The translations under genes were made by a program, and so were the position numbers. DNA of 64,000 bases, taken from positions 124,001 to 188,000 of the forward strand of contig NZ_CACZTX010000009.1 in assembly GCF_902784195.1 (NCBI RefSeq), in the 5' to 3' direction. Source of the DNA: an uncultured Methanobrevibacter sp. (lineage in GTDB: Archaea > Methanobacteriota > Methanobacteria > Methanobacteriales > Methanobacteriaceae). This document shows positions 29,995 through 44,487 of the stretch, one piece after another (the first letter of the stretch is position 1; each line of letters begins with the position of its first letter). Under the pieces are notes generated by a model. It searched no databases, was not told the DNA's origin, and was given only the letters and a program-made list of their open reading frames with translations.

Positions 29995-30387
29995 TCATTT
30001 TTTATCCTGATTCCCAATATTCAATGTAGTTCTGAACAGATGAATAATCTCATCACGTTTATTGTCTGATGGAAAATCATCTTTTTCTAAAGTAAACATA
30101 GCCAATTCATAGATGATCTTATTCATTCTTTTTCCTTCATCAGTCAAATAGTACTCAGTCACTTTAGAATTGTCCTCAAAAGTCCTTTTCCCAATCAATC
30201 CATTAGATTCCAAATCCTTTAAGCAACTTGTTAAAACCTTATTGCTCAAATCAGGCTTATCTTCTTTGAACTCTTTAAATCTATTTTTACCAAAGAACAA
30301 ATCTCTGATAATCAGAATATGCCACTTTTTGCTAAACAATTTTAAAGACTGATCTACAGGACAGATATTACCCTCTAATTTTGTCAT
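29995..30387 (-). CDS. HxlR-family winged-helix regulator
   Basis: The 130-residue protein is an HxlR-type transcription factor. It has the typical N-terminus with a conserved cysteine, GNICPVDQSLKLFSKKWHILIIRDLF, a recognition region LSNKVLTSCLKDLESNGLI, and a wing. Several relatives (YodB, HypR, QorR) sense oxidants or electrophiles through that cysteine, here Cys9. The promoter carries GTTACT-N4-AGTAAC directly upstream of its TATA box, indicating autoregulation. The same element precedes the divergent FMN-binding gene and the macrodomain/sirtuin operon. Confidence 0.93.
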   Translation of the reverse strand: MTKLEGNICPVDQSLKLFSKKWHILIIRDLFFGKNRFKEFKEDKPDLSNKVLTSCLKDLESNGLIGKRTFEDNSKVTEYYLTDEGKRMNKIIYELAMFTLEKDDFPSDNKRDEIIHLFRTTLNIGNQDKK

Positions 30388-30500: not shown

Positions 30501-30604
30501 TTTATAAAATTTTAGTTACTAAAAAGTAACCAAAACCATATAAATGATTATACTCCAATTTGAAGCATTTATGTTACTTTTTGGTTACAAAACCTTTATA
30601 TTTA
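30501..30604. promoter_or_regulatory. Divergent promoters with GTTAC-type HxlR operator candidates
   Basis: The perfect inverted repeat GTTACT-AAAA-AGTAAC at 30515-30530 lies against the minus-strand TATA (TTTATAAAAT, about 30501-30510) of the HxlR gene. GTTAC at 30573 and 30584 (GTTACTTTTTGGTTAC) lies five bases before the plus-strand TATA CTTTATATTTA (about 30594-30604). On the minus strand the first site reads GTTAC-N6-GTAAC, so both have the same layout relative to their own TATA box. Confidence 0.7.
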
Positions 30605-30691
30605 CCTCTAAACAATCTATAATTAACGTTAAATCCAAAACGTTCAAAATAAATAAAAATATGAACTTATATAAATTTGCGAGATGATAAA

Positions 30692-31096
30692 ATGGAAGAA
30701 GTAATTAAATTCTTAACTGAAAACCCACAACAATATTTGGCAACTACCGGACTTGATGGAAATGCAAAAGTAAGGCCTATCCTATTCTACTTTGCAGAAA
30801 ATGACAAACCATACTTCTGTACTAGCAATCAAAAGCCTATGTACAAAGAATTGGAAGCTAACCCTAACTTTGAAATGACTGCAGCAACCCCTGAATTCCA
30901 ATGGATAAGAATTGCAGGAAAAGTTGAATTTGTAGATGATTTGGAAATCAAACAAAAGGTCATTGAAGCAAATGAACTTGTAAAAGCATTATATGAAAGT
31001 GGAGACAACCCAATCTTTGAAGTATTTACAATTAGTGAAGGTAAGGCAACAATTGCTGACTTCTCTGGAGAACCTCCAAAAGTTTATGAAATATAA
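30692..31096 (+). CDS. Pyridoxamine 5'-phosphate oxidase-like FMN-binding protein
   Basis: The 134-residue protein is a split-barrel flavin-binding protein: EEVIKFLTENPQQYLATTGLDGNAKVRPI and PYFCTSNQKPMYKELEANPNFEMT are typical of the small PNPOx-like group that binds FMN or F420. Such proteins reduce or detoxify small molecules; the substrate is unknown. The frame can be read from TTG 30677, but the ATG at 30692 fits the family start. It is divergent from the HxlR regulator and shares its operator type, so it is the likely primary target of that regulator. Confidence 0.88.
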   Translation: MEEVIKFLTENPQQYLATTGLDGNAKVRPILFYFAENDKPYFCTSNQKPMYKELEANPNFEMTAATPEFQWIRIAGKVEFVDDLEIKQKVIEANELVKALYESGDNPIFEVFTISEGKATIADFSGEPPKVYEI

Positions 31097-31216: not shown

Positions 31217-32023
31217 TTATTTATTTCCAAAATCATCCCAGAAATGAGTTTGGAAAACACTTCTTTTACTAAGTTCCTCTAATTTTAGGAACAGTTTCCA
31301 TGGCATGGACAAGTTCATGTATTCATCTGGAATCAATCTTCTCATATGAGCTCTTGCTGCAAAGTCAAGCGGACTTAAAACAGGCACTGGATCATCACTA
31401 TCATTTTGCTCAAAAGTGAATGCACCAATAGCTTGGCATGCAGATGCCTGAGGAGTCATTATATGGGCGCTTTCAGTTCTGAATGAACCGTTCAATTGAA
31501 GAATTGCTGATAATTCCATAGTGTTTAATGTAAATACAACAGAATCTGGAACTTCTCCTTCTTCAAGAAGCTCTATTGGCTTAAAGACAACATATTCACC
31601 TTCATCATATAAAGGCCTGTTCTTGATGTTTTCATAAGCTGTATCAAAATCTGAAAAGATCCTTTCCCCTTTCTTAAACATTTCTTGAGTTGGCTTTGGC
31701 ATGAAGCTTAACCTATGAAGAAATGCTTCCTTATCCTTAGCTGATTCTGTACCTAATGATAAAAATGTAGCTTGAAATGCTCTGTCTTCATCTGTCTTGA
31801 ATCCAGTTCCCCAACCGAATCCTGCAGAAACTCCTCCGCAAGTTATGTTTTCACGACCAAAAGCAGTGACTTTTCTCTTTGCAATTGTTTGTCCAACAAG
31901 AGACATTACACAACCGCCCTTACCTGCTTTAGGAGCCAATGCATCCTCTGGCTTTAAATCAGCTTTGATTAAGACAATAGGATTAAATTGACCATTTAAT
32001 TCCTTTACAATATTGAATTCCAT
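31217..32023 (-). CDS. DUF169-family protein
   Basis: The 268-residue protein matches DUF169, a family common in methanogens and anaerobes with no assigned function. Features include IVLIKADLKPEDALAPKAGKGGC near the N-terminus and glycine/cysteine-rich segments ENITCGGVSAGFGWGTG and MTPQASACQAIGAF. Three conserved-looking cysteines suggest metal or redox chemistry, though this is inference. The frame extends to 32074, but the ATG at 32023 (MEFNIVKELNG) fits better after AAGGGTTGTTTTAAA. It is divergent from the macrodomain gene, sharing a 210-bp regulatory spacer. Confidence 0.83.
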   Translation of the reverse strand: MEFNIVKELNGQFNPIVLIKADLKPEDALAPKAGKGGCVMSLVGQTIAKRKVTAFGRENITCGGVSAGFGWGTGFKTDEDRAFQATFLSLGTESAKDKEAFLHRLSFMPKPTQEMFKKGERIFSDFDTAYENIKNRPLYDEGEYVVFKPIELLEEGEVPDSVVFTLNTMELSAILQLNGSFRTESAHIMTPQASACQAIGAFTFEQNDSDDPVPVLSPLDFAARAHMRRLIPDEYMNLSMPWKLFLKLEELSKRSVFQTHFWDDFGNK

Positions 32024-32150
32024 TTTAAAACAACCCTTAAATAGATTTATATAATTAATTCTAGATTTATGCAATGAAATATAAAGATTTTACTATTTAA
32101 AGGAAAGATGAGAATTATTAATCAAATTAAGTATTTGTATAAAAAATCAA

Positions 32151-32184
32151 GTTACTCCCCAGTTACAAAAAAGATTTAAATATA
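32151..32184 (+). promoter_or_regulatory. Promoter of the macrodomain/sirtuin operon with GTTAC direct repeat
   Basis: GTTAC at 32151-32155 and 32162-32166 (GTTACTCCCCAGTTAC) has the same 11-bp spacing as the element before the FMN-protein gene. It is followed by AAAAAAGA and the TATA box TTTAAATATA (32175-32184). Transcription should start near 32205-32210, ahead of the GAGGT ribosome site at 32225. Confidence 0.65.
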
Positions 32185-32234
32185 TGCGAACAATAATTAA
32201 TATAATAATGAAAAGAAGATTCATGAGGTTAAAG

Positions 32235-33053
32235 ATGAAAGAATTTGATAAAAACATTGAAATAAATTTTCTCATAAATGAATTGATTTCCACCAACGAA
32301 AGAATAGATAATGATATGGAAATCCCTAATGACTACGAAGAGAAAAGAAAATTGCTTAGAGCATTGATGAATATACAAACTCCAGTTCAATTAAGTGATG
32401 AATTTTATGAGATACAAGACCAAATCCTCAGTGAAGAAACAAATACTAAGGATTTGATTTCATGTATGGACATAAATCCGATTAGCCAGAATCATGATGG
32501 GATAGACTCAAAAATAGCATTGTGGCAAGGAGACATAACTTGCCTTAAGGTGGATGCAATTGTAAATGCTGCAAATGGACAAATGTTAGGTTGCTTCATT
32601 CCACTGCACAACTGCATTGACAATCAGATTCATTCAGCTGCAGGATTCCAGTTAAGAATGGACTGCTATAAAATCATGCAAGAGCAAGGACATGAAGAGG
32701 AAAACGGAAATGCAAAAATCACCTCTGCTTATAATCTCCCTTCAAAATATGTCATTCATACTGTAGGCCCTGCAATTGCCAATGGACGGGAACCTAATGA
32801 AAGGGAAATAAAGGAACTTGAAAGCTGTTATGAATCCTGTTTAGAGCTTGCAGATGAATATGGCTTAAAATCAATAGCTTTTTGTTCAATATCCACCGGA
32901 GTCTTTAACTTCCCAAAAGACCAAGCATCCAAATTAGCTATTGAAACTGTAAGGAACTATTTAAAAAATAATCCAAAAACAAGCATTGAACGGGTAATCT
33001 TCAATACATTTTCAGATGAAGCTACAGAAATCTATAGGAAAAACCTAAAATAG
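32235..33053 (+). CDS. Zinc-containing macrodomain ADP-ribosyl hydrolase
   Basis: The 272-residue protein has a helical N-terminal part (1-90) and a macrodomain (about 91-272). WQGDITCLKVDAIVNAANG is the ADP-ribose-binding start, and LGCFIPLHNCIDNQIHSAAG carries the Cys120, His125, Cys127 pattern that binds zinc in the Zn-Macro class. Later motifs STGVFNFP and the AYNLPSKYVIHTVGP strand are typical. Such enzymes remove ADP-ribose added by a partner SirTM. The start at 32235 follows GAGGTTAAAG; the upstream ATG at 32184 overlaps the TATA box and is rejected. The sirtuin gene follows 11 bp later, clearly as one operon. Confidence 0.92.
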   Translation: MKEFDKNIEINFLINELISTNERIDNDMEIPNDYEEKRKLLRALMNIQTPVQLSDEFYEIQDQILSEETNTKDLISCMDINPISQNHDGIDSKIALWQGDITCLKVDAIVNAANGQMLGCFIPLHNCIDNQIHSAAGFQLRMDCYKIMQEQGHEEENGNAKITSAYNLPSKYVIHTVGPAIANGREPNEREIKELESCYESCLELADEYGLKSIAFCSISTGVFNFPKDQASKLAIETVRNYLKNNPKTSIERVIFNTFSDEATEIYRKNLK

Positions 33054-33064
33054 GAGACAATATC

Positions 33065-33967
33065 ATGTGTGACTACAATAAAAGAGTGAAAAAATTAAAA
33101 GAATTGATTGATGATGCTGATTATATATTGATAGGTGCAGGAGCAGGATTATCAACTGCTGCAGGAGTGGAATATGCTGGGAAAAGGTTTACAGACAACT
33201 TCCCAGAATTTATTGAAAAATATGGATTCCAAGATATGTACACTTCAATGTTCTATCCATTCAAAAGCTCAGAAGAAAGATGGGCATATTTTGCAAAGCA
33301 CATTTATGTAAACAACATTGGAATGGAAGGAACTGATTTATATAAAAAACTGTTCAGCATAGTGAAAGATAAGGATTATTTCGTTATCACAACAAATACT
33401 GATGACCAATTCCTGAAATCCGGATTTGATAAGGAGAGGTTCTTTAGAACACAGGGAACATACAGCAAAATCCAATGCTCAAAAGCATGCCACAATAAAC
33501 TATATGATGACGAAGAATTAATCTTGGAAATGATGGGAAAGACTGATGAAGACTTGAAAATACCATCTGAACTTGTCCCAAAATGTCCTGTTTGTGGAGA
33601 GGAAATGGACTTGAACTTAAGAAAAGACAGCTTCTTTGTAGAGGATGATGAGTGGCATGAACAGAATCAAAATTACATTGATTTTAGAAAAAAGGCACTA
33701 AATGGAAAATTGCTCCTTTTGGAATTTGGAATAGGATTTAACACTCCAATTATAATTCGTTTCCCCTTTGATGATTTAGTGAAATCATATGACAATGTCA
33801 ATCTTGTGAGATTCAACAGAAGTCACACAGAATTAACAGTGAAGCATAATGGAAATTATTATTTGGTTCCTGAAGATGAACTTGACAAGTATGTTTCGCC
33901 AGACATTAAAGAGAGATATGTTCCTTTCAATGAGAGCATTGATGAAACATTGAATAAAATAAGATAA
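33065..33967 (+). CDS. SirTM-class sirtuin, putative protein ADP-ribosyltransferase
   Basis: The 300-residue sirtuin has the NAD loop GAGAGLSTAAGVEYAG (24-39) and TTNTDDQF (109-116), where classical sirtuins have TQNID. The catalytic His-Gly is replaced by Gln130-Gly131, as in class M sirtuins, which transfer ADP-ribose instead of deacylating. Zinc ligands are Cys138, Cys142, Cys174 and Cys177. In staphylococci and streptococci such enzymes modify a lipoylated GcvH-like protein encoded in the same operon; no GcvH-L or lipoate ligase gene is present here, so the target is unknown. GGAGACAATATC precedes the ATG. Confidence 0.9.
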   Translation: MCDYNKRVKKLKELIDDADYILIGAGAGLSTAAGVEYAGKRFTDNFPEFIEKYGFQDMYTSMFYPFKSSEERWAYFAKHIYVNNIGMEGTDLYKKLFSIVKDKDYFVITTNTDDQFLKSGFDKERFFRTQGTYSKIQCSKACHNKLYDDEELILEMMGKTDEDLKIPSELVPKCPVCGEEMDLNLRKDSFFVEDDEWHEQNQNYIDFRKKALNGKLLLLEFGIGFNTPIIIRFPFDDLVKSYDNVNLVRFNRSHTELTVKHNGNYYLVPEDELDKYVSPDIKERYVPFNESIDETLNKIR

Positions 33968-35904: not shown

Positions 35905-36481
35905 GCTAATTGAAATCAACCGGAAAATGGAAAACCAATTCAAGAATGCATCTTATGTGAATTGCATAGAAACAAAATCATAATATCACAAAAGCGAAAA
36001 TCACAAAAATAATTCCATTAATTTAAATGAAAACACGACTAATATTCTAAATAGTTATTATTTAGAATATTAATTTAATCAACCATATATTTCATTATTT
36101 CATATCTAAAACTTTTTTTAAAAAACAAATCAAACCTTATCAACATCACCCATACCATTATGGCAAATTTATTAAAATTTTATAAAAATTACAAAAATAA
36201 AAAATTGAAAATTTTAAAAATTTTCAAACACTGCTTTTTAAAAAATTTTTTTATTGAACTATTTTTAAAACTTATTTTTCAAGATAAACATCTATAAAAA
36301 AGACTTTATTAAATTTAAAATTAGATGAAAAATTACGAAATGACATCAATATTAAAATAAAGTTGTAAAATTGCTTTAATTTTGTTATAATATTCTAAAA
36401 ACTTTTTATAAACGATAATAATTTATATTATGAAGATAAATAGAAAAATAAAGAATATTAAGCATTATTAAGGTGAAATAT
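35905..36481. other. Non-coding spacer with a 13-bp stem-loop
   Basis: TAATATTCTAAAT (36040-36052) and ATTTAGAATATTA (36060-36072) form a perfect stem with a seven-base loop; it could be a terminator. The last 80 bp hold a TATA-like CTTTTTATAAACG near 36402 and an AAGGTGAAA ribosome site for the next gene. I see no credible gene; a 31-codon frame at 35888-35983 overlaps the preceding gene and has no support. Confidence 0.55.
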
Positions 36482-37339
36482 ATGATTGACGAAATTTTTC
36501 AAGAGTATAAAAAGCAGGAAAATGACAACATCATCCTTATGACAAAGCACTTTGGAATTGATGTGAAGTGCCTCCTGTATCCCAATATAAACAACGATTT
36601 GATAGTCATTTTAGATAGTGTAAATCTCTTAAATGAAGAAATGGATTCCTTTAAGCTTATTGATGATTTTTATGAGAAAATCATTAAGGAAGGAATATTA
36701 TTGGGCATTGGTTTTGGAAAGGCTCATATGATAAAGAAAATATTGGAATTTCCTCTAAGCAAAAGTGAAATTTTTGATATAGACCTAAAGGAATACCATG
36801 AATATTATCCCCCTTTTGACGAATCAAAATCCGATTTTGAAAAAGTTGATGAAGATGGAATCGAAAGACTCAAAGTATCTGTAAATGATGATCCAAGTAA
36901 ACTTGAAGTTGAAATATCTGCAGTTGCATACATCTCCAAAATCATTGATGAAAACCATAAGGAATTAAAGAAAATTCTTTTTGAAGAGTTTTTTGATGAA
37001 TTTGAAATAGACAGGAAGAAAGCCAAATTCAGAATCAATAAAAAGATTCGAATTGATAGTGAAAGTTTAAGACCATTAATAAAATCCAGATTTTTCAAAG
37101 AGAAAAGGGGAAAATATAAAATCAAGAAGATAATCGAAGACTACTTTGAATACATGATAGATATGGGTTTGGACATAGGAATCAGAACAGGGCTGCGATT
37201 GGTAATTGAAGATATTCAAAAGGAAATCATGCCTTATGAACTATTAGGGAACTTATCTGAAACGGAAACAATGATGTATATTCAAAAGGAACACAGCGAT
37301 TATATCTATAAGAAATACGACACTAAAGTTAGCATTTGA
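36482..37339 (+). CDS. Hypothetical protein, first of a paralogue pair
   Basis: I do not recognise the family. The protein is highly charged and mostly helical. Near residue 65 it has IIKEGILLGIGFGKAHMI, and near 235 YMIDMGLDIGIRTGLRLVIEDIQKE. The same two landmarks, a glycine-rich G-x2-x-G-x3-GK helix and its repeat near the C-terminus, recur in the gene at 37472. The start is the ATG at 36482, since the in-frame GTG at 36473 is part of the AAGGTGAAA ribosome site. No catalytic motif, signal peptide or membrane helix is evident. The pair may be a lineage-specific family. Confidence 0.75.
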   Translation: MIDEIFQEYKKQENDNIILMTKHFGIDVKCLLYPNINNDLIVILDSVNLLNEEMDSFKLIDDFYEKIIKEGILLGIGFGKAHMIKKILEFPLSKSEIFDIDLKEYHEYYPPFDESKSDFEKVDEDGIERLKVSVNDDPSKLEVEISAVAYISKIIDENHKELKKILFEEFFDEFEIDRKKAKFRINKKIRIDSESLRPLIKSRFFKEKRGKYKIKKIIEDYFEYMIDMGLDIGIRTGLRLVIEDIQKEIMPYELLGNLSETETMMYIQKEHSDYIYKKYDTKVSI

Positions 37340-37471: not shown

Positions 37472-38425
37472 ATGAGCTATTTAATCAATGAAATTTATGA
37501 ACTTTACGAAAAGCATTTGGAAATTACAGAACCTGTCCTGAAGAATATGGGAGTTGAAGACAATATTCACAATTATCTTATTGATGTAAACATTGACCTT
37601 GAAATATTGCTTGAATCCAATGACATAATCAGATATGAATATGATGAGCTTCAAGAAAAAGTGAAACAGGCATATGATGAAATATTCAAGGAAGGAATAC
37701 TATTTGGAATCATAGTCGGAAAAATCATCAAGCTAAACAACTGCTTGGGAGATAAGGAAAAGTACAATGAATATATGGGCAGAAACTATGATTATTACAC
37801 AGAATACAGCTTTAAAATAGACTTTTTTAAAAAGGTAATTCCTCCAATAAAAATCAGGAAATCTACAAGGGAAAGCAACCCAAGACAATTGAATTACAGA
37901 AACAAGAAGTATGAGGAAAAAAGGAAAGTCAATGGAATCAATGTAAGCTGTGAAGAAATCAAGGATTCATATTACACCATCAATGAAGAGATAATTGAAT
38001 ATAAGAAAAGAATTAAAGAAGATGGAATAATGAGATTCCTTGAGGATGAGGAGATTGATGATGAGATAAAAAATCAATATTCCAACATAAATGACAAGTT
38101 ATTTGAAAAGCTCTTTAATATCTTAGAAGTCAATCTGAACAATGCTGAGAGAGCTTGTCAAAATTACTATCGCTTCGACACATTTACAGCACACGACATG
38201 TTTGTATCCGATTTGTTTGCAAACTTAGAAGGGGAATTTGAAGCAAGGGAATTGATTGATTTCTACTTAAAATATGTCTTCTTTAAAGGAATTGACATTG
38301 GAATATTAAATGGAAAAATGTTTTTCGTATATGATATCCAAGAAGGATTCTTGAATTACTATAAAATACAAAACATGAACAGTGAAGAAAAAAGCAGATA
38401 TTTGATTAAAGAATTGTTTGATTAG
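37472..38425 (+). CDS. Hypothetical protein, second of a paralogue pair
   Basis: This 317-residue protein shares the order and landmarks of the gene at 36482: LINEIYELYEKH at the start, IFKEGILFGIIVGKIIKL near residue 70, and YVFFKGIDIGILNGKMFFVYDIQE near 270, followed by MNSEEKSRYL compared with LSETETMMYI. The middle region is divergent and strongly charged. Function is unknown. A good AAAGGTGAAAGC site precedes the ATG, and a promoter-like TATA occurs about 30 bp earlier, so it can be transcribed independently. Confidence 0.78.
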   Translation: MSYLINEIYELYEKHLEITEPVLKNMGVEDNIHNYLIDVNIDLEILLESNDIIRYEYDELQEKVKQAYDEIFKEGILFGIIVGKIIKLNNCLGDKEKYNEYMGRNYDYYTEYSFKIDFFKKVIPPIKIRKSTRESNPRQLNYRNKKYEEKRKVNGINVSCEEIKDSYYTINEEIIEYKKRIKEDGIMRFLEDEEIDDEIKNQYSNINDKLFEKLFNILEVNLNNAERACQNYYRFDTFTAHDMFVSDLFANLEGEFEARELIDFYLKYVFFKGIDIGILNGKMFFVYDIQEGFLNYYKIQNMNSEEKSRYLIKELFD

Positions 38426-40861: not shown

Positions 40862-43143
<2,282 letters not shown>

Positions 43144-43845: not shown

Positions 43846-44487
43846 TTAAGCTTCAGCAGGTTTTCCTTTTTCAGCCCATCTTACAGTCATGGTAGTGAAT
43901 GGCTGAGCAATTGCAGTCCAAATCAAACTTAATATCCAGTGAGTGATGATCATTATTAAGATGTCTACAACAGAGTAAACACCAACAAATGCCAATCCAA
44001 TGAATACGAAGTTATCAATAAATTCACTGAAAGCAAGAACTAATAAGTTTATTCCTGATGCGTAAGCTTTTCCTTCATTTACAATAGTAGTCAATCTTGC
44101 ATTTACCAAGTTACCGATTAAGTAACTGATGTAAGAAGCTATAAGAATTCTTGGGGTTTGGGTAAATACAAAGGATAATGCTGCATCACCAGTAAAGAAA
44201 TCTGGGGATGGCAAGAATAATATTAATGTAGTCATAAATACGAATAATACATCAGCAGCAATACCTAATACAAGGGTTCTTTGTGCTACTCTTTCACCGT
44301 ATACATCAGCAATTACATTAGTTAAAATGTATACTAAAGGATAGATCAATACTCCAGCAGGAGTTTCCATACCTAAGAAATTAATATTGATAATCTTAAC
44401 AGTAATTAAGTTTGCAATGGTAAAAGCCATACAGAAGAATACTGTGAGTATTACTCTTTTTTCTGTAAAGTCAAAATTTAAATCCAT
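43846..44487 (-). CDS. Queuosine-precursor-type transporter (YhhQ/VUT family)
   Basis: The 213-residue membrane protein has six predicted helices. The family signature appears as ANLITVKIININFLGMETPAGVLIYPLVYILTNVIADVYGE, and the last helices end WTAIAQPFTTMTVRWAEKG. Bacterial relatives import preQ0 or preQ1. In archaea preQ0 feeds archaeosine in tRNA, so the protein could salvage it; that role is inferred. It is monocistronic, convergent with the regulator gene at 43144. AAGGATTGATT precedes the ATG. Confidence 0.9.
   Translation of the reverse strand: MDLNFDFTEKRVILTVFFCMAFTIANLITVKIININFLGMETPAGVLIYPLVYILTNVIADVYGERVAQRTLVLGIAADVLFVFMTTLILFLPSPDFFTGDAALSFVFTQTPRILIASYISYLIGNLVNARLTTIVNEGKAYASGINLLVLAFSEFIDNFVFIGLAFVGVYSVVDILIMIITHWILSLIWTAIAQPFTTMTVRWAEKGKPAEA

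Follow-up and report, generated by a model that had tools for sequence, protein, structure and literature searches.

The locus examined here raises the question of which protein might be modified by a writer-eraser pair for ADP-ribosylation in a rumen-type methanogen, where the gene for the staphylococcal substrate, GcvH-L, does not accompany the pair. The window (the whole 64,000-nucleotide stretch of Methanobrevibacter DNA analysed) contains a zinc macrodomain gene followed by a class M sirtuin (SirTM) gene. The extended SirTM operon of S. aureus and S. pyogenes, which consists of GcvH-L, Zn-Macro, SirTM, LplA, OYE, and LLM, is similar in having a Gln-Gly sirtuin as writer, a zinc macrodomain as eraser, and flavin-type oxidoreductases in the neighbourhood; in contrast, the window locus lacks GcvH-L, LplA, OYE, and LLM, as well as the macrodomain docking patch, and its SirTM and macrodomain are ~36% and ~44% identical, respectively, to the extended-operon proteins. 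In base-pair order, the features of the locus are:

29995-30387, minus strand: HxlR/DUF24 regulator gene with a conserved N-terminal Cys9, 1.8 kb from the pair
30515-30530, strand not assigned: regulatory element copy 2, the perfect palindrome GTTACTAAAAAGTAAC, on the HxlR side
30573-30588, plus strand: regulatory element copy 3, GTTACTTTTTGGTTAC, just upstream of the PPOX gene TATA box
30692-31096, plus strand: PPOX-class (pyridoxamine-phosphate-oxidase-like) enzyme, ORF opening at 30677; candidate partner or substrate
31217-32074, minus strand: DUF169 protein, divergent from the pair and kept at the locus in the genus
32151-32166, plus strand: 16-bp regulatory element upstream of the pair, GTTACTCCCCAGTTAC
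32167-32174: purine-rich BRE-like stretch before the TATA box
32175-32184, plus strand: putative TATA box of the operon, TTTAAATATA, conserved in relatives
32235-33053, plus strand: Zn-macrodomain ADP-ribosyl hydrolase (eraser, activity by homology), 272 aa from ATG 32235, ORF opening at 32184
32592-32615, plus strand: zinc-binding Cx4HxC motif, codons for C137 to C144 (289-aa numbering)
33065-33967, plus strand: SirTM, class M sirtuin (putative writer), 300 aa
33452-33457, plus strand: codons for Gln130-Gly131, in place of the sirtuin His-Gly

The 32235-33053 protein matched the NCBIfam protein-ADP-ribose hydrolase model NF003163 at 352 bits (cut-off 272) and Pfam Macro at 127 bits, and has both the Cx4HxC loop and the NAAN motif (residues 128-131) of its class. 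Its zinc triad, Cys137, His142, and Cys144, is unchanged in all 92 aligned relatives. The likely start is ATG 32235, because the ORF opening at 32184 overlaps the TATA box (~32175-32184), whereas ATG 32235 lies downstream of that box, is preceded by a GAGG ribosome-binding site, and agrees with the start in relatives. The nearest solved structures are the zinc macrodomains of M. oralis (MorMacro, 55% identity), S. aureus, and S. pyogenes and the fungal fusion Mfs1; an N-terminal helical extension of ~90 residues can be aligned to 8RSI. The Arg/Lys/Arg patch with which SpyMacro docks GcvH-L is Ala/Asn/Glu in the window protein. By analogy with its relatives, the window macrodomain is predicted to remove ADP-ribose in a Zn-dependent manner.

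The SirTM gene starts 11 nt past the macrodomain stop. No Pfam model exceeded its threshold on the SirTM protein, and canonical sirtuin models matched weakly; among solved structures it comes closest to S. pyogenes SirTM (5A3A, E 3e-53) and Mfs1 (8RSN, 2e-30). Gly24, Gly26, Thr110, Asn111, Gln130, Gly131, and Arg186 are unchanged in 110/110 aligned relatives, and the four zinc-ribbon cysteines are kept in 108 of them. Alignment with the S. pyogenes protein places Asn111 and Arg186 at the NAD-site Asn and the Gln-contacting Arg (SpySirTM N118 and R192). The original prediction, of a Cys-His-Cys zinc macrodomain 11 nt before a Gln-Gly class M sirtuin, is thus borne out in both genes and their motifs, including the SirTM-specific residues whose loss would have undone the class call. 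By analogy with its class, the protein is presumably an ADP-ribosyltransferase that lacks deacylase activity; in the literature we found no activity measurement for any archaeal SirTM. A Zn-macrodomain gene adjoins the SirTM gene at 40/44 archaeal and 53/72 bacterial loci, and at some loci SirTM occurs with no macrodomain beside it. Four sister species carry a second SirTM-like gene after the first (L043:6665-7522, L033:8603-9463, L034:8054-8908, and L047:1987-2844); its zinc ribbon is intact, but it is probably an inactive paralogue because it has lost the NAD-binding glycines (GAGAG to AGGEY) and has Asn in place of the Gln and Thr in place of the Arg. At two further loci (L048 and L050, in G006 and G009), SirTM is 34% identical to that of the window and the adjacent Zn-macrodomain ~58-60%, so that the writer there has either diverged quickly or been replaced.

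No gcvH-like or lplA-like gene lies near the pair (32235-33967), as had been noted, and the absence extends to the source genome (2.05 Mb in 18 contigs, 99.77% complete), on searches of which our genome-wide statements rest. Its sole GcvH Pfam match turned out to be no lipoyl protein but the PycB biotin carrier domain, and its sole LplA-type match is the biotin ligase BirA, encoded beside a biotin carboxylase gene. GcvH passed E 1e-6 in none of 139 Methanobacteriaceae genomes, against 10 of 14 control genomes; LplA passed in no pair-bearing genome of the family, and the sole genome in which it did (G027) has no pair. Since GcvH is absent across the family and the source-genome matches are biotin proteins, the staphylococcal substrate, judged from the genome sequences, cannot be the target in the source methanogen. 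Absence of gcvH-L is also the normal state in bacterial minimal operons, and therefore it does not, alone, point to a special archaeal target.

Much of this has a precedent. According to Ariza et al. 2024 (PMC11490716), the Zn-macrodomain of a minimal operon from Methanobrevibacter oralis, MorMacro, was crystallized in the apo form, with ADP-ribose, and with Asn-ADP-ribose (PDB 8RSI/8RSJ/8RSK); Zn-dependent hydrolysis of Glu/Asp ADP-ribose was shown, Glu/Asp-modified PARP1 but not SpyGcvH-L was demodified, and the positive patch was described as missing from archaeal Zn-macrodomains. The M. oralis operon shares with the window locus the genus name, the two-gene arrangement, the Cx4HxC zinc loop, and the lack of a GcvH-L gene; it differs in species clade and in sequence, and MorMacro activity was measured, whereas the window protein is known from its sequence. 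Because that operon had been described (PMC11490716), an archaeal pair that is independent of GcvH-L is largely known already, and the original prediction was overstated on this point; its expectation of a substrate other than GcvH-L agrees with the absence of GcvH and LplA but was anticipated by the MorMacro result. The SirTM class itself was defined by Rack et al. 2015 (PMC4518038), in whose account the S. pyogenes enzyme modifies its target specifically and reversibly and the fungal Mfs1 is tied to oxidative stress in Candida albicans; Mfs1 fuses the same two domains that the window encodes as two separate, unfused genes. Minimal operons seem far commoner than the GcvH-L form. To our knowledge, no substrate is known for any minimal Zn-Macro/SirTM operon.

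What is new here is a shared element, GTTAC-N6-GT(T/A)AC, tying the pair to an HxlR regulator of thiol-sensing type and a flavin-type enzyme gene; we found no description of it for the M. oralis operon in the accessible part of that report (PMC11490716). An upstream alignment of genus members revealed a conserved GTTAC-N6-GTTAC abutting the BRE/TATA region. The looser pattern GTTAC-N3..9-GTWAC occurs at five sites in the 64-kb window (seven matches, both strands) vs. 0.42 matches expected. Three copies are at the locus, two between the HxlR and PPOX genes and one before the pair, and all lie beside TATA-like boxes. The strict N6 element has six sites in the 2.05-Mb genome, and only these three, all at the pair/HxlR/PPOX locus, are intergenic; the other three were judged to be background because they fall inside coding sequence (one in mcrB). 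In a set of 44 archaeal loci, 23/41 Zn-macrodomain, 14/20 HxlR, and 10/13 PPOX genes have the element in their upstream region, compared with only 2/438 others, and nothing was seen with spacers other than 6; the Fisher p of 5.6e-26 should be read as nominal, the genomes being related and the counts not independent. It also precedes 6/12 DUF169 genes in these loci, where DUF169 and the pair have a common intergenic region. None of 62 bacterial Zn-macrodomain promoters has the element, and Methanosphaera operons mostly lack it (one case, L061). Lying on the BRE side of the TATA box, it could possibly serve activation or repression. Two further GTTAC pairs in the window have spacers of 7 (44110-44126) and 3 (41424-41436). 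Elsewhere in G017 (L170), another HxlR gene with two element copies lies near radical-SAM/SPASM and dehydrogenase-like genes, whose homologues adjoin SirTM in Sporomusa (L101).

The 29995-30387 protein matched PF01638 at 69.8 bits (cut-off 20.8) and has the HxlR fold and the N-terminal cysteine; 45 of 46 linked HxlR proteins have Cys9, and nearly all have the N-terminal Cys-Pro to which it belongs. An HxlR gene occurs within three genes of the pair at 24/72 bacterial and 17/44 archaeal loci, the bacterial linkage falling to ~0-1% beyond six genes, and an HxlR or Rrf2 regulator is within five genes of the pair at 42/73 bacterial loci. PPOX-class, flavodoxin-like, flavin-reductase-like, and DUF1848 genes recur near bacterial pairs. 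The earlier description of the neighbours as redox or detoxification genes was sound but unspecific, the specific link being the shared operator-like element and the HxlR regulator. In this family, HypR, YodB, and CatR use the N-terminal cysteine to detect HOCl, quinones, and diamide (PMC6943732), and HxlR is a formaldehyde sensor (PMC7835342). The window regulator resembles HypR, YodB, and CatR of B. subtilis in family, in its N-terminal Cys-Pro, and in the near-palindromic operator-like sites beside flavin-type enzyme genes; it differs in its archaeal promoter context, and the spacer and half-sites are not those of YodB, which prefers TACT-N7-AGTA (PMC8063818), while its binding and signal are putative. 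The placement of the element suggests that HxlR binds it and that the locus responds to thiol stress.

From the observed genes and motifs, the absence of the known substrate, the shared element, and the gene linkage, we consider that the minimal operon is probably an HxlR-controlled ADP-ribosylation switch for thiol or electrophile stress with a substrate other than GcvH-L. Both enzyme activities are taken from homologues. SirTM would use NAD+ to mono-ADP-ribosylate an acidic side chain in a single protein or a small number of them, with release of nicotinamide; the zinc macrodomain would strip the ADP-ribose that SirTM adds. The HxlR/DUF24 regulator would control transcription, in whichever direction, through the sites beside the three TATA boxes and hence three units: its own gene, the PPOX-class enzyme gene, and the Zn-macrodomain/SirTM pair. 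Its N-terminal cysteine would most likely sense thiol-reactive stress, i.e., disulfide, quinone, aldehyde, or oxygen exposure.

Alternatively, the element and HxlR could serve PPOX only, the pair being a passenger under its own control that plays no part in stress and acts on a substrate of a broad or housekeeping kind. Several sister species indeed hold the pair with no linked HxlR/PPOX unit: in four (G021, G031, G032, and G033) the element is kept at the pair although no HxlR gene is at the locus, which speaks against a simple story, and in G017, where the unit is missing from the locus, the element at the pair departs from the strict pattern. G019 has lost the pair and yet keeps the locus, and G031 and G033 (L044 and L046) have reading-frame breaks in the pair, which is therefore dispensable there unless these are draft assembly errors. 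However, most members of the genus and two other genera have the element at the pair's own promoter, at a constant spacing to the TATA box. Moreover, G030 has its HxlR/PPOX unit on a different contig from the pair, and the element is present both at that unit and at the pair promoter, an arrangement that favours action in trans. We consequently regard the passenger explanation as unlikely, though worth keeping in mind, and retain the HxlR-controlled switch.

The distribution of the pair bears on a second alternative. About 75 of the 139 Methanobacteriaceae genomes have the pair; SirTM matches were found in 76 (one a weak canonical-type match) and Zn-macrodomain matches, looser ones included, in 83. 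Gut Clostridia, Bacilli, and Bacteroidales account for most of the best 80 loci listed from named genomes, with identities of 44-62%. The SirTM tree groups the window genus with Methanosphaera (support 90, not starred) within a set of gut Clostridia and Bacilli, whereas the macrodomain tree groups it with other Methanobrevibacter clades (98, starred) and places Methanosphaera among gut Clostridia. A single clade of all archaeal Zn-macrodomains was rejected (p-AU 3e-5), as was a macrodomain clade of the window genus plus Methanosphaera (2e-11); one archaeal SirTM clade was not rejected (p 0.60 and 0.17), and SirTM of the window genus with the large Methanobrevibacter group was mildly rejected (p 0.022), the groups in these tests having been partly chosen after the trees were seen. 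The macrodomain rejections therefore support more than one acquisition of the eraser from gut bacteria, in keeping with the predicted and plausible gut bacterial source, and writer and eraser at the window locus may have different histories. In Methanosphaera loci L053-L063 (L054:2823-11836 and equivalents), the pair is inside a conserved same-strand run of CMD, cupin, hydrolase, GNAT, glutathione-peroxidase-like, flavodoxin-like, and class-II glutamine amidotransferase genes. G018:C61 (L035) has the same match coordinates and gene order as the Methanosphaera contig G126:C3 (L063) and has probably entered the M. olleyae SIG14 assembly as a contaminant.

Tight pairing of writer and eraser, patchy occurrence with frequent loss, and transfer between lineages are what might be seen in a toxin-antitoxin or anti-phage module like DarT/DarG, in which the sirtuin would be harmful and the macrodomain its antidote. 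We consider this improbable: PADLOC models gave no match to the pair, just two loci were present among 2.9 million viral contigs, linkage to stress regulators is common to these pairs, SirTM stands at some loci with no macrodomain beside it, and S. pyogenes SirTM is specific and reversible (PMC4518038). It is scarcely credible that the target is a lipoyl protein after all, its gene divergent or lost in the small gap that an assembly of this completeness allows, given the family-wide absence of GcvH, the lack of LplA in every pair-bearing genome, the lost docking patch, and the failure of MorMacro to demodify GcvH-L (PMC11490716).

Other neighbours were considered as partners or substrates. After the pair, in the same locus or operon, G021, G030, and G034 carry a gene for NAMPT, a nicotinamide phosphoribosyltransferase (NF006629, 599 bits; domains NAMPT_N and NAPRTase), of which G031 and G033 have a damaged or interrupted version (coordinates of NAMPT genes: L043:4944-6377, L037:59-1480, and L077:8059-9489). 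NAMPT fits a nicotinamide-releasing sirtuin but is optional: the source genome has none, and in G019 it lies between DUF169 and MATE with no pair, so that it was rejected as an obligatory partner. DUF1848 was likewise rejected; it is at 13/73 bacterial loci and in G029, but its one copy in the source genome is away from the pair, and co-occurrence within the genus is weak and confounded by incomplete genomes. In Clostridia, a 264-aa gene, often beside HxlR, lies just before the Zn-macrodomain gene at 17 of the best 80 loci (L085, L116, L155, and 14 more); it is a candidate substrate in bacteria but not a universal one, having no Pfam match and no homologue in the source genome. Two tandem paralogous genes in the window (36473-37339 and 37472-38425) are conserved in position in the genus.

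Under the HxlR-controlled switch, the first substrate candidate would be the co-regulated PPOX-class protein and the second the HxlR regulator. The full proposal, that in methanogens and gut anaerobes a lipoate-independent, HxlR-controlled pair reversibly ADP-ribosylates the PPOX-class enzyme or HxlR under thiol or electrophile stress, is doubtful, and we offer it as a conjecture; if true, either protein would be the first substrate known for such a minimal operon, and the first from archaea. The pair itself is real and well preserved, but it belongs to a class that has been published and is already known from a close archaeal relative, and the useful addition is a candidate HxlR regulon with a short list of possible targets. 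This one-locus regulon of HxlR, a PPOX-class enzyme, and the pair would narrow the target question to a small, testable list, hint at the inducing signal, and provide a concrete route into reversible protein ADP-ribosylation in archaea.
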